From a bacterium (GTDB lineage: Bacteria; Arandabacterota; Arandabacteria; Arandabacterales; Arandabacteraceae): a DNA stretch of 64,000 nt. The position numbers and the translations under genes are program-made. Positions within the stretch are counted from its first letter, which is position 1. Every line of letters starts with the position of its first letter. Positions 11,555-17,090 of this stretch are shown here, piece by piece. The notes under the pieces are model-generated. The model searched no databases. It had not been told where the DNA came from and saw nothing but the letters and a program-made list of their open reading frames with translations. The DNA is taken from NCBI GenBank assembly GCA_029933125.1, contig JAOZOU010000001.1, positions 318,073 to 382,072 on the forward strand, in the 5' to 3' direction.

Positions 11555-11575
11555 TCTCCTACCTCCTTCCTATCC

Positions 11576-11633
11576 GGGGTCGGAGCTAAAAATCCGCAAA
11601 CCCAACATGCTGGGGTCGGAGCTAAAATCCCGC
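11576..11633 (+). repeat. REP-like repeat cluster A (two 22-nt units, 36-bp period)
   Basis: GGGGTCGGAGCTAAAAATCC (unit begins 11576) and GGGGTCGGAGCTAAAATCCC (unit begins 11612) are 22-nt units separated by a 14-nt unrelated spacer. Both begin exactly 36 bases apart. The same unit occurs three times in reverse orientation at 12720-12813. Such GGGGTC-rich units resemble REP sequences linked to RAYT transposases, though no transposase gene is in this window. Confidence 0.75.
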
Positions 11634-11772
11634 ATCTGCCTCCAGCTGAGAATATCACTATTCCTCCAGTAGTGCTACAAAATTTCCATGTCTGACTGCG
11701 GGGAGAAAGTGTATTGGGCGTAGTCAAGGGCTGCCTGCAACAGAGGAGGTTAGCGGAGGTTCTTGCCAGAAA

Positions 11773-12495: not shown

Positions 12496-12719
12496 TACGT
12501 CCTACTCCGTCAACATCTCTTTTCCCGTCCTGTGAGTATTTCACGCATGGCTACCCTCCACCGCCGCAAAACGCCGCAATTAATGTTAACTTATTTGATT
12601 ACCTAAATCGATTGCTCATATCTGCACCATAACGCATCGATAGTGCTCCGGTGGACGTCTTGGATGATGATCGCCGGTGGCCTATGCAGATAAGATGATG
12701 CTAGCGCTTGGGGTCAGGT

Positions 12720-12813
12720 GCAGTTTTTTAGCTCCGACCCCGATTCGTCGAATTTGCAGTTTTTTAGCTCCGACCCCAATTTGGGGAGTTTGCAGTTTTT
12801 TAGCTCCGACCCC
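12720..12813 (-). repeat. REP-like repeat cluster B (three 22-nt units, 36-bp period)
   Basis: GCAGTTTTTTAGCTCCGACC(CC) occurs identically at 12720-12741, 12756-12777 and 12792-12813, with 14-nt unrelated spacers, so starts are exactly 36 bases apart. It is the reverse complement of cluster A. A GGGGTC at 12710-12715 can pair with the GACCCC of the first unit to form a hairpin. The remainder of the 12496-12719 gap shows no gene I can support. Confidence 0.8.
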
Positions 12814-12844
12814 GTGTTGACTGGGGTTCAGGTTACATGTAGGT

Positions 12845-13590: not shown

Positions 13591-13806
13591 ATGGAATATG
13601 TCGATGCGATAACCAAGGAGATTGATAAGTTTGCAAAAAGTGAGAGCCAGCGAAAACGCCTTAGAGCACTCCTCAACCGCATTATCAAGGCAATTGAAGG
13701 TGAGAACGCAATTTATCCTGCAGAGGCAATCAAGCAAGAGCTTGATTCCCTAACCCAAAAGGCTGATGAAATCGCCGAGGAAATAGCAGGCAAAATAGAG
13801 GAGTAA
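13591..13806 (+). CDS. Small helical protein, first gene of the Rad50-like cassette
   Basis: A 71-residue acidic, all-helical protein (charged heptad-like pattern from residue 3 to 71, no Cys, no membrane segment) that I do not recognise. GGGAGG five bases before the ATG gives a strong start. Its stop overlaps the ATPase start by one base (TAATG), which implies translational coupling and a matched dose with the ATPase. By position it is likely a small partner or regulator of the ATPase/nuclease pair, analogous to the short coiled-coil subunits found beside exonuclease VII- or SbcC-type enzymes; this is inference. Confidence 0.75.
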   Translation: MEYVDAITKEIDKFAKSESQRKRLRALLNRIIKAIEGENAIYPAEAIKQELDSLTQKADEIAEEIAGKIEE

Positions 13807-15959
13807 TGACTATGGCTACAGGATTCCGACTTAAGCAGATCTCAATAAGTGGTTTCCGGGGTTACGGAGAACAAAGGCAGGTGATTGATCTTGCATCACC
13901 TATTGTCCTGCTCATCGGCAACAATCGGAGCGGCAAGAGTAGTACCCTCAATGCTATAGAGTGGGCTCTTTACGGAAGTGAAGTGGTCGGCAAGAAAATC
14001 GGGATAGAAGAACGCAAGGGTTGGCGTGTTGTTAATCTATCCGCCAAGAAGGCTCATGCCGAACTCATTATCTCAACTGCCACCGGTGACATCAAGGTAG
14101 TGCGATCCCAAAGTGGAAGCCGCAAGTCTGGTGAAACTTTCTACTACATCGACGGCGGCAAGAAATACTTCGATGAGACGGGGTTATGGACCCGTCTCGG
14201 GCTCGACGCTAAAGATTTCATGAGCTCCGTCTATCTTCATCAGGAAGTGGTGAGGGATATTCTCGTAACCACCCCAAAAGTGCGCAAGGATGCTCTCGAT
14301 AGACTACTCGGGGTCTCCGAGCTCCGCTCCCTTCGCGAGGCATTTTCCAAGATAAGGCGCTCAAGTTATGAAAACTGTATTGCGGACTTGCTCGAGGATC
14401 TTGAGGACCGCATCGAAACCCGTACCAAAGCTTACAGAGAGCAAATCGAGGATGCTAGGGAAGAGGGCAGGGAAATGGGACTTACAAAGTCCGATTTTAC
14501 ACTCAAGGGGATGAAGGATCAAGCCAGCCATGCTATCACGCTTCTAAAGAAAGTCGCTTCCAAGGCGCGAGTGAAGATCACAAGACTCAGCCCACCTTCT
14601 CGCATAAGCCAGTATGAAGACTTTGTAAGGCAGGTGAGATTGCAAATCCAGAGGCTCAGAAGCGAAAATCCGGCTGCAACAACACAGCACAATCTTTACA
14701 AGAAGCGACGTCGCCTTGAGGAACTCCAAGGAAGCTATGAGCACTGCCTCGCCACGCTTAAGAATGTAAAGAATAAGCTAAGAGCCCTGGAGAAGCGGCA
14801 TGGCAGCCTCAAGACTATCAAGAACCGCATAGGCCATCTTGAGAGCGACGACAAACGTACAGCAGATGAGGTTGCAAAGGTAAGTGACAGGATAGCAATT
14901 GTCGACCAAGCCATCTCCTACCTCAAACGCCTGCCTCAGAAGAAAGATCAAATAGCATGCCCTGTCTGTGAACAGCCAGTTCGGCGGTCGCAACTCCTAA
15001 AAAGGCTTGTCTCGCTAAGAGAGCAAGCTTCAAAGGAAACTGAAAATCTCCTCAGTAAGCGAAAAATGATCGGTCAGGAAATCCGATCACTGAAGAAGAC
15101 AATAGACGACATAGAGGTCCTTTCCAAAGAGGATCTTCCAGATGCAAAAGCCGAACTCCGATCGGTCATCGAGGAGATTTCTCGAGAGACGCGCAAGAAG
15201 ATAAAAGATTCCGATGACCCTGTTGTGATTATCGAAAAGGAAGAAGAAAGGATTGAAAAACAGTTAGAGAAAAACAAGCGACTCCTTGGGGAGTATACCA
15301 AGTCACTCTCCCTTGTTGAAGATGTGCTCACCAGGATTGATCTCATTGGTGGAGCCCTTGAGACAGCCAACAAGATAAAGCAGGTCGAGTCAATAACGAG
15401 CTCGAATCTGTGGAAGACTCTGCGTCACCAACAATCCAAGCTCATGCAGATGCTCGATGATATTGAAAAGCTCGCGCATGCCATAAGTTCTGTTCATGTC
15501 AGGGTCACAAGAACCAAACTGGGACAGGCTGAGAAAGGCATCGTTGAATACTATCGGACACTTGTACACAGACCTGACTTCGATGCCATAGAGATTAGCC
15601 AGGATGATTTCGATGTGTATGCGATAAGCAATGGAAAGAGGCAAAAGGTTATATCGGTATTCAATCAAGGAGACATGAATTGTGTTGCCCTGAGCATCTT
15701 CCTGGCTCTCGCCGCCAATCAGACTCAGGAAGGGCCTGGCTTCGTGATGCTCGATGATCCTTCCCAAAGTCTTGATTCTATTCAGAAGAAAAGGCTGGCG
15801 GATGTCATAAACAAAGCTTCGGCATCCAAGCAGATAATTCTAGCAACGATGGACGAGGAACTCGCTACGAACCTTATGAGGAATGTGACAAAGAGGAAAA
15901 AGGTGTATCAATTCGGTGAGTGGGACCCCCACAAGGGCCCGAGTATTACAGAGGTCTAA
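13806..15959 (+). CDS. Rad50/SMC-like ATPase with zinc-hook CxxC
   Basis: A 717-residue AAA/ABC-type DNA-repair ATPase. Walker A is GNNRSGKSS (residues 38-46), the Q-loop Gln is Q146 (SSVYLHQEVV), two coiled-coil arms run about 180-375 and 400-565, and between them lies a Rad50-type hook CPVCEQPV (C385, C388). The signature motif is atypical (VFNQGDMNCVALSIFLAL, about 618-635, instead of LSGGE), Walker B/D-loop is FVMLDDPSQSLDS (646-658), and the switch His of Rad50 (SHDEEL) is Met (TMDEEL, 681-686). It is shorter than SbcC/Rad50 (about 850-1050 aa) and has no Mre11/SbcD partner. The next gene encodes a different nuclease fold. Likely works on DNA ends or invading DNA with that nuclease. Confidence 0.85.
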   Translation: MTMATGFRLKQISISGFRGYGEQRQVIDLASPIVLLIGNNRSGKSSTLNAIEWALYGSEVVGKKIGIEERKGWRVVNLSAKKAHAELIISTATGDIKVVRSQSGSRKSGETFYYIDGGKKYFDETGLWTRLGLDAKDFMSSVYLHQEVVRDILVTTPKVRKDALDRLLGVSELRSLREAFSKIRRSSYENCIADLLEDLEDRIETRTKAYREQIEDAREEGREMGLTKSDFTLKGMKDQASHAITLLKKVASKARVKITRLSPPSRISQYEDFVRQVRLQIQRLRSENPAATTQHNLYKKRRRLEELQGSYEHCLATLKNVKNKLRALEKRHGSLKTIKNRIGHLESDDKRTADEVAKVSDRIAIVDQAISYLKRLPQKKDQIACPVCEQPVRRSQLLKRLVSLREQASKETENLLSKRKMIGQEIRSLKKTIDDIEVLSKEDLPDAKAELRSVIEEISRETRKKIKDSDDPVVIIEKEEERIEKQLEKNKRLLGEYTKSLSLVEDVLTRIDLIGGALETANKIKQVESITSSNLWKTLRHQQSKLMQMLDDIEKLAHAISSVHVRVTRTKLGQAEKGIVEYYRTLVHRPDFDAIEISQDDFDVYAISNGKRQKVISVFNQGDMNCVALSIFLALAANQTQEGPGFVMLDDPSQSLDSIQKKRLADVINKASASKQIILATMDEELATNLMRNVTKRKKVYQFGEWDPHKGPSITEV

Positions 15960-15961
15960 TC

Positions 15962-16483
15962 TTGGGACTTACCACGAACGTTAGAGCTGGCCTAAGAGAT
16001 CTACAGAAAAAGCACGGCAAGGAGTTTGGCAAGATTATACAGAAAGTTCTCGCCCTATCGCTTAAACGCCTCGGATATCGACTTGCTGAGGAAAGAACCG
16101 TGCAAGGTGTTGATATCGACATAATTCACGAAGAGACAGGTGAAAGAAGAGCAATAGAAGTCAAAACATGCATTTACAGTGACGTAACAATTGGTTTTAA
16201 GGATGTTGAAGGACTTAAGCGTCGAAGCCTCGATGGCTATGAATCCTTCTATGCTGTCCTCTCGCTTCCTCTTGCCGTCACGATCGGTTGGGTAATGGTG
16301 CCAGCCCAGGACATAGCTCCGGGTAAATACAATGTCGTGACCTTGGCATACCGAAAGCAAGAAGACTTCTCAGAGCTTGTCAATGAATGCTTCACCCCCA
16401 CTTTTGAAGACCTCATTGACGAATTGCTCAGGTGCAAGCCGGGCAGTGTGCTCAAGTTTCTTAAAGACAATCATGGCATCTGA
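15962..16483 (+). CDS. PD-(D/E)XK-like nuclease, partner of the Rad50-like ATPase
   Basis: A 173-residue protein. The TTG at 15962 has GAGG seven bases upstream and starts two bases past the ATPase stop; a longer form from GTG 15920 would overlap the ATPase. The core reads E21 (GKEFGKIIQKVL helix), GVDIDIIHEETGERRAIEVKTC with D51/D53, E66 and K68, and a following helix (VEGLKRRSLDGYE). This matches the alpha-beta-beta-beta-alpha-beta order and E...D...ExK pattern of PD-(D/E)XK restriction/resolvase-type nucleases. I see no specificity domain or methylase. The tight coupling with the ATPase suggests one complex. Specific family not recognised. Confidence 0.7.
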   Translation: MGLTTNVRAGLRDLQKKHGKEFGKIIQKVLALSLKRLGYRLAEERTVQGVDIDIIHEETGERRAIEVKTCIYSDVTIGFKDVEGLKRRSLDGYESFYAVLSLPLAVTIGWVMVPAQDIAPGKYNVVTLAYRKQEDFSELVNECFTPTFEDLIDELLRCKPGSVLKFLKDNHGI

Positions 16484-16712
16484 GCATTCCTGCAAGAGCT
16501 TGCTCGAGATTCAAGATGGTTTCGCATCATTTGAGGATTCTGCCATCTGCCATGGAGCACCACCGCTAAAAGAGAACAGGGGAGCTCGTGTAGCTAGGTC
16601 CAAAAGTTTTGCTGCGATGCGCCAAGCCACGATTTCTAGAATTTGCAGTGAGGAAGCGCGACAACTTGTATGCCTGGCTGAACTATGGTAACATATTCTA
16701 GGGGTGAGGCTG

Positions 16713-17090
16713 ATGAGATATCTCGCCATTGCATTGCTCATTATACTGGCTCCTGCCTATTCCTATGGTGTTATCAAAGCCAATCCCAAAGCGGGAAAGT
16801 CTGAGGTACCGACAATCACCTCAACCGGCCGTGAGGATTCACTTGCAGAGCTTAGGTCACTCCATGGCAAGCGTGAACGCCGGCTCTTCAGGCTCCACCT
16901 TTGGGCAAGATCTCTCAAGGGCGACATGAAGCACATCTATGATACTTATGGCTTCCCGTCAACGAGATATCGTGAGGAGACCATGGGGCGTGTGACTGAG
17001 AAATGGACATACCTCACACAAGGTCTTGAGTTCACCTTCAGAGATGGGAAACTCATCAAGACGCGTCACTTCATACCCTCATCACGCTAA
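16713..17090 (+). CDS. Small exported protein of unknown function
   Basis: A 125-residue protein with a signal peptide (MRYLAIALLIILAPAYSYG), a low-complexity stretch, then a basic helix (RERRLFRLHLWARSL) and a compact domain HIYDTYGFPSTRYREET...TEKWTYLTQGLEFTFRDGKL. The TYG-FPS...KWTY...FTF-DGKL pattern resembles the SmpA/OmlA (BamE-like) two-layer fold, which is only a loose resemblance. A GTG at 16704 could add three residues. It stands alone, 220 bases after the nuclease gene, with nothing else recognisable in that gap. Confidence 0.6.
   Translation: MRYLAIALLIILAPAYSYGVIKANPKAGKSEVPTITSTGREDSLAELRSLHGKRERRLFRLHLWARSLKGDMKHIYDTYGFPSTRYREETMGRVTEKWTYLTQGLEFTFRDGKLIKTRHFIPSSR

Follow-up and report, generated by a model that had tools for sequence, protein, structure and literature searches.

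A rare three-gene bacterial operon joins a Rad50-like zinc-hook ATPase to a Holliday-junction-resolvase-type nuclease and a small helix-rich protein

The 64,000-nucleotide stretch of bacterial DNA analysed here (hereafter the window) carries three adjoining genes that most likely encode a machine for immunity, or otherwise for DNA repair, that has so far gone uncharacterised. Their products are a small protein (S), an ABC ATPase of Rad50 type that carries a coiled coil and a zinc hook (A), and a PD-(D/E)XK nuclease similar to the Holliday junction resolvase Hjc (N). We see about an even chance that they form a three-subunit Rad50-type DNA-sensing nuclease that limits invading DNA. Somewhat more tentatively, we propose that the trio is an immune system not described before, whose ATP-gated, Rad50-like sensor of DNA structure would fire a Holliday-junction-resolvase-type nuclease via a dedicated adaptor of about 70 residues.

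All three open reading frames were confirmed on the forward strand of the window. S (13591–13806, 71 aa) is the first gene of the operon and is followed by A (13806–15959, 717 aa) and N (15962–16483, 173 aa). The tight packing noted in the first-pass annotation is indeed present: S and A overlap in a TAATG motif, and a gap of 2 nt separates A from N. Translation of A could start at the overlapping ATG (13806) or at the ATG at 13812, of which the latter better matches the homologues, while N begins at a TTG (15962) that is kept as start codon in the genome of the sister species. Non-synonymous divergence between the window and the sister species is far below synonymous divergence in each of the three genes, and because synonymous sites are at or near saturation over this large distance, the conservation is informative. 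The smallest of the three, annotated as a small helical protein, is a genuine gene and no chance reading frame. An ORF of 66 to 80 aa lies at the position of S in 10 of 10 loci (shuffled DNA gives 4.3% per locus), and pN is well below pS at 39% identity to the S of the sister species. S appears helix-rich from its sequence; it matches no family in Pfam, PADLOC, or NCBIfam, and HHalign finds it unlike the small proteins from other Rad50-like operons.

The ATPase A contains the Pfam domains SMC_N and AAA_23, and its closest PDB relatives by profile are archaeal Rad50s (4e-25). Foldseek with a predicted model of A (pLDDT 86) ranks Mre11-Rad50 first and LmuB third. As annotated, the hallmarks of a Rad50-like hook ATPase are all found: the Walker A motif GNNRSGKSS (residues 38–46; 13917–13943) whose residues G43, K44, S45, and S46 do not vary among 10 homologues, the zinc hook CPVCEQPV (residues 385–392; 14958–14981) with C385, P386, and C388 equally invariant, and the Walker B and D-loop segment FVMLDDPSQSLD (residues 646–657; 15741–15776), in which D650 and D651 are invariant in the same 10. 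All homologues thus keep the CPxC of the hook, and the closer eight also its CEQ. The Q-loop of Rad50 is retained. Residue alignment to M. jannaschii Rad50 (3aux) likewise upheld the unusual features noted before. A degenerate ABC signature, FNQGD (residues 619–623; 15660–15674), takes the place of Rad50 LSGGE and is found in 8 of 8 closer trios, with LSQGD in the diverged locus L035 and FSAGQ in L053. The Walker B LDDP aligns with Rad50 LDEP and places an Asp at the position of the catalytic Glu in 10 of 10 homologues, and M682 (15849–15851) stands at the position of the switch histidine, where 9 of 10 homologues have Met and L053 has Gln. A has other residues in place of the signature serine, the catalytic glutamate, and the switch histidine, and the loss of these three helper residues of hydrolysis suggests a slow, switch-like ATPase.

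The assignment of N as a PD-(D/E)XK nuclease is supported by its fold. With an AlphaFold model based on nine sequences (pLDDT 95.3), Foldseek places archaeal Hjc structures in each of the first 20 PDB positions (E from 2.3e-5, probability 1.0) and RecU after them, with target-normalised TM scores to Hjc structures of 0.56 to 0.72 within the top 15. Phage resolvases head the named viral matches of N. The Pfam family Hjc (PF01870) is matched by seven of nine N members (best 3.8e-5). The diverged N of L053 scores 21.3, above the curated cut-off of 21.1, and the N of the window has no Hjc match. The catalytic motif proposed by the first-pass annotation holds only in part: D53, E66, and K68 (16118–16165, forward strand) align with D33, E46, and K48 of Hjc 1gef and are invariant in 10 homologues, but E21 is nearly invariant, being absent in L012, and its assignment as the invariant residue of motif I is not supported. 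The invariant Q27 instead probably occupies the position of the helix-1 glutamate E9 of Hjc, judging from an ungapped extension of the alignment. Besides sharing the fold and the D/ExK centre of the archaeal resolvase, N differs from it in being a bacterial protein bound in an operon with A and S, in this putative Gln at the helix-1 glutamate position, and in a C-terminal extension of added helices from about residue 134, which could serve for docking on A or S.

Relatives of A were found with a two-sequence profile search of genome contigs. At each complete-contig locus S lies upstream and N downstream of A, and genome searches added two further, diverged trios. The exact combination hence recurs in unrelated bacteria, with the order S-A-N at 10 complete loci, while L013 is a contig-edge fragment with the end of A and N. 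Across the ten complete loci S measures 69 to 76 aa, A 708 to 724 aa, and N 164 to 186 aa, with gaps of -4 to 82 nt between S and A and 2 to 73 nt between A and N. Every inspected N homologue adjoins A. Pairwise identities between loci are correlated among the three proteins (A-N rho 0.82, Mantel p 0.0008; A-S 0.62, p 0.0016), which is also expected from shared descent alone and hence speaks for joint inheritance, not contact.

Hosts of the trio are the window's genus, Candidatus Solincola, Geothermincola, and Geohydrothermomicrobium of the Actinomycetota (whose class we take to be Geothermincolia), WOR-3, and one further bacterial group (G291); every carrier with a named record is a metagenome bin. 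The trio is rare and patchy across these unrelated bacteria, with 3 carriers among 386 sampled genomes (two of them from the window's genus), 6 among 31 genomes of the class of G041, and 2 of 147 and 1 of 125 genomes in two phyla. No copy was found on 72,556 plasmids, in 50,697 phages, or in IMG/VR at the sensitivities used, and these searches returned only weak N-terminal matches to haloarchaeal ATPases. An archaeal origin was considered and rejected: the contig assigned to Candidatus Methanosuratincola petrocarbonis (L011, MAGV01000052.1) is 99.7% identical at the DNA level to a contig of a G041-class genome, indicating bin contamination, and none of 299 other genomes of the Methanosuratincola phylum has N.

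In the window, the trio is flanked by a phospholipid-methyltransferase-like gene on one side and by msrB, enolase, and phosphoglycerate mutase on the other, a housekeeping neighbourhood and no defence island. The description of nearby scarred accessory DNA in the first-pass annotation holds only in part: repeats of 36 nt do occur about 11.6 and 12.8 kb into the window, but the genes next to the trio itself are the housekeeping ones just named. These tandem repeats with the core GGGGTCGGAGCTAAAAA (11575–11634 on the forward and 12719–12826 on the reverse strand, mutually inverted) bracket about 1.1 kb with a rhodanese gene and give six matches in the window, where none are expected by chance. 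Downstream of the trio, gene D (16704–17090, forward strand) encodes an exported-looking protein of 128 aa with a signal-peptide-like sequence and no Pfam family. D has a 66% identical neighbour in the sister species (G002) and lies next after the trio in the window and the sister species alike, but is absent at the other trio loci and so is probably no part of the system.

The locus of the sister species is the same, with a gene for a type II DNA methyltransferase between msrB and the trio. Contig ends had at first suggested a differing locus, but a 31-bp exact overlap of contig ends in G002 makes it the same as that of the window, and mobility within the genus was rejected. The trio thus keeps its position in the sister species, which implies vertical inheritance within the genus. 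The methyltransferase, located in G002 between msrB (L141) and D (L006:5818-6732) and not in the window, may have been gained or lost recently. A and N of the two species are 57% to 58% identical and S 39%, compared to 82% to 85% for enolase and phosphoglycerate mutase, so the trio diverges faster than these flanking genes; the msrB-like neighbour is itself just 51% identical.

Other loci have different surroundings. At both WOR-3 loci an OLD-family ATPase-TOPRIM gene lies 3' of N on the same strand, about 90 nt away in L053 and about 900 nt away in L054 (PADLOC Old matches at 3e-113 and 7e-93), and in L055 a NERD-UvrD helicase gene (1.7e-74) is located directly upstream of S. Altogether OLD-nuclease, NERD-helicase, or methyltransferase neighbours are present at 4 of 10 loci, with ordinary neighbours at the other six. 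Such defence-type neighbours point to immunity but are suggestive only. Near the diverged trio of L053 we also observed a toxin-antitoxin-like pair (308–2010), composed of an XRE/IrrE-protease gene and then a PIN-type DUF4411 gene.

The obvious point of comparison for the trio is Mre11-Rad50/SbcCD, with which A shares the ABC head, the coiled coil, the CPxC zinc hook, and a nuclease partner. The two differ in that N is a PD-(D/E)XK nuclease of Hjc fold and not an Mre11 metallophosphatase, in the FNQGD signature, Walker B Asp, and switch Met that A has for LSGGE, Glu, and His, in the much shorter coil of A, and in the extra protein S. That the trio replaces SbcCD/Mre11-Rad50 in DNA repair, with A tethering and opening DNA ends or junctions, the Hjc-like N cutting branched intermediates where Mre11 would normally act, and S as regulator, seems to us less likely than defence, though it draws on several observations: the nearest solved relatives of A by sequence are Rad50s, the fold of N is that of a recombination resolvase, and the location in the window is a housekeeping one with vertical inheritance in the genus. 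Moreover, the reported lack of an SbcD/Mre11 partner extends beyond the operon, since no such gene was found in the window, beside the trio, or elsewhere in its genome (G000). SbcD was not found in six trio carriers (G000, G002, G291, G428, G044, and G047) and is present in two genomes of the same family that lack the trio. However, five carriers (G041, G042, G043, G046, and G418) do have an SbcD/Mre11-type match below the curated cut-off, so the trio is no simple replacement of SbcCD. Its patchiness (6 of 31 genomes in the class, 1 of 125 and 2 of 147 in the phyla) would be unusual for a core repair system, and the OLD, NERD-helicase, and methyltransferase neighbours as well as the faster divergence relative to flanking genes also argue against repair. 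A complex for chromosome maintenance or fork processing without immune role, in which an SMC-like clamp guides a structure-specific resolvase, is very improbable: an Hjc-like nuclease together with an SMC/Rad50 clamp would fit the resolution of stalled forks, but the trio is rare and patchy.

Among known defence systems, type II Lamassu (LmuACB; ABC-3C, DdmABC) is closest in design, as it combines a hook ATPase, a small protein, and a nuclease in three genes and shares the degenerate ATPase centre and the patchy spread. Using PADLOC models dated 2023, the top match of A is LmuB PDLC03859 (147 bits, 1.8e-43) over its full length, LmuB structures are among its Foldseek matches, and a zinc hook is present in many LmuB (PMC10586767). 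One could therefore view the trio as a divergent Lamassu with A as LmuB, N as an LmuA-type nuclease effector, and S as a much reduced LmuC, but we consider this improbable. True LmuB proteins score 435 to 469 bits on PDLC03859, compared to 147 to 171 for the trio ATPases and 90 to 140 for other Rad50-type proteins. A has no DUF3732 match in Pfam up to E=1, whereas a control locus with a true LmuB (L033; PDB 9hqu, 6e-206) shows this domain at 6.5e-54 and LmuC upstream. PADLOC finds no LmuC or LmuA match for S and N, though it detects the LmuC of the control locus. LmuB and L038 group together (98/94) apart from the trio ATPases (91/96) in a small tree of few rows and long branches. The Walker B of A reads LDDP and not DQP as in both LmuBs found here, LmuB having been described with Glu replaced by Gln at the same catalytic site (PMC10586767). 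Gene order is small protein-ATPase-nuclease in the trio and LmuA-LmuC-LmuB in Lamassu, and S is half the size of LmuC. Without DUF3732, LmuA, or LmuC, and outside the LmuB branch, the trio has a Lamassu-like design but is not a Lamassu member; membership is largely refuted despite the top PADLOC match, and the trio matches none of the named systems tested. The findings that the first-pass annotation had listed as refuting its reading were not observed, as the trio recurs, N has a nuclease fold, and the LmuB match does not amount to Lamassu membership.

Other comparisons are more distant. Systems with CxC-clade ABC ATPases and DndE (PbeABCD) and DndD likewise encode a coiled-coil ABC ATPase and a small partner protein in operons for defence against invaders (PMC10853773). 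However, A scores just 70 bits to PbeC, and neither S nor N gave a DndE or modification/restriction match, nor were any such genes seen among the inspected neighbours. OLD/Gabija-type systems also combine ATPase and nuclease for defence, and OLD-family genes adjoin two trio loci, but in OLD the TOPRIM nuclease is part of the ATPase polypeptide, and A has none. A parallel arrangement was observed in L045 (976–4343) and L047 (976–4292), in both on the minus strand, with genes for a GIY-YIG-like protein (150/153 aa), a small protein (61/63 aa) without HHalign similarity to S, and a Rad50-like ATPase (805/811 aa) with the hook CPLCLQ; this operon may be a second ATPase/nuclease/small-protein system.

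Taken together, we lean towards defence, which is favoured by the patchy spread, the fast divergence, and the neighbours at four of ten loci. We count against it the housekeeping neighbours in the window, the vertical inheritance within the genus, the six of ten loci without an obvious defence neighbour, and the absence of matches on plasmids, in phages, or in IMG/VR at the sensitivities used. In the proposed immune mechanism, two A subunits would be joined through the zinc hook and the dimer would clamp unusual DNA such as ends, hairpins, or branched replication forks once ATP engages the heads. With the support for hydrolysis weakened, we propose that this clamp is a slow switch and not a motor. 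S may bridge A to N or keep N inactive, and N, probably dimeric like Hjc, would cut the DNA bound by A. Phage or plasmid DNA would be destroyed as a result or, similar to Lamassu, infection would be aborted, with a stand-alone Holliday-junction-resolvase-type nuclease in the role of LmuA or Mre11.

Wadjet and Lamassu, at the least, are immune systems that have recruited Rad50/SMC-type ATPases. If the immune reading is true, the trio would be a third such lineage, in which a resolvase-type nuclease replaces Mre11 and a tiny adaptor is added, and would illustrate how a single sensor of DNA structure can be coupled to various cutters. Its compactness would also make it useful for asking whether these sensors recognise DNA ends, hairpins, or branched forks. 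If its role is instead in repair, the trio would stand out as an unusual kind of Rad50 complex, one without Mre11.
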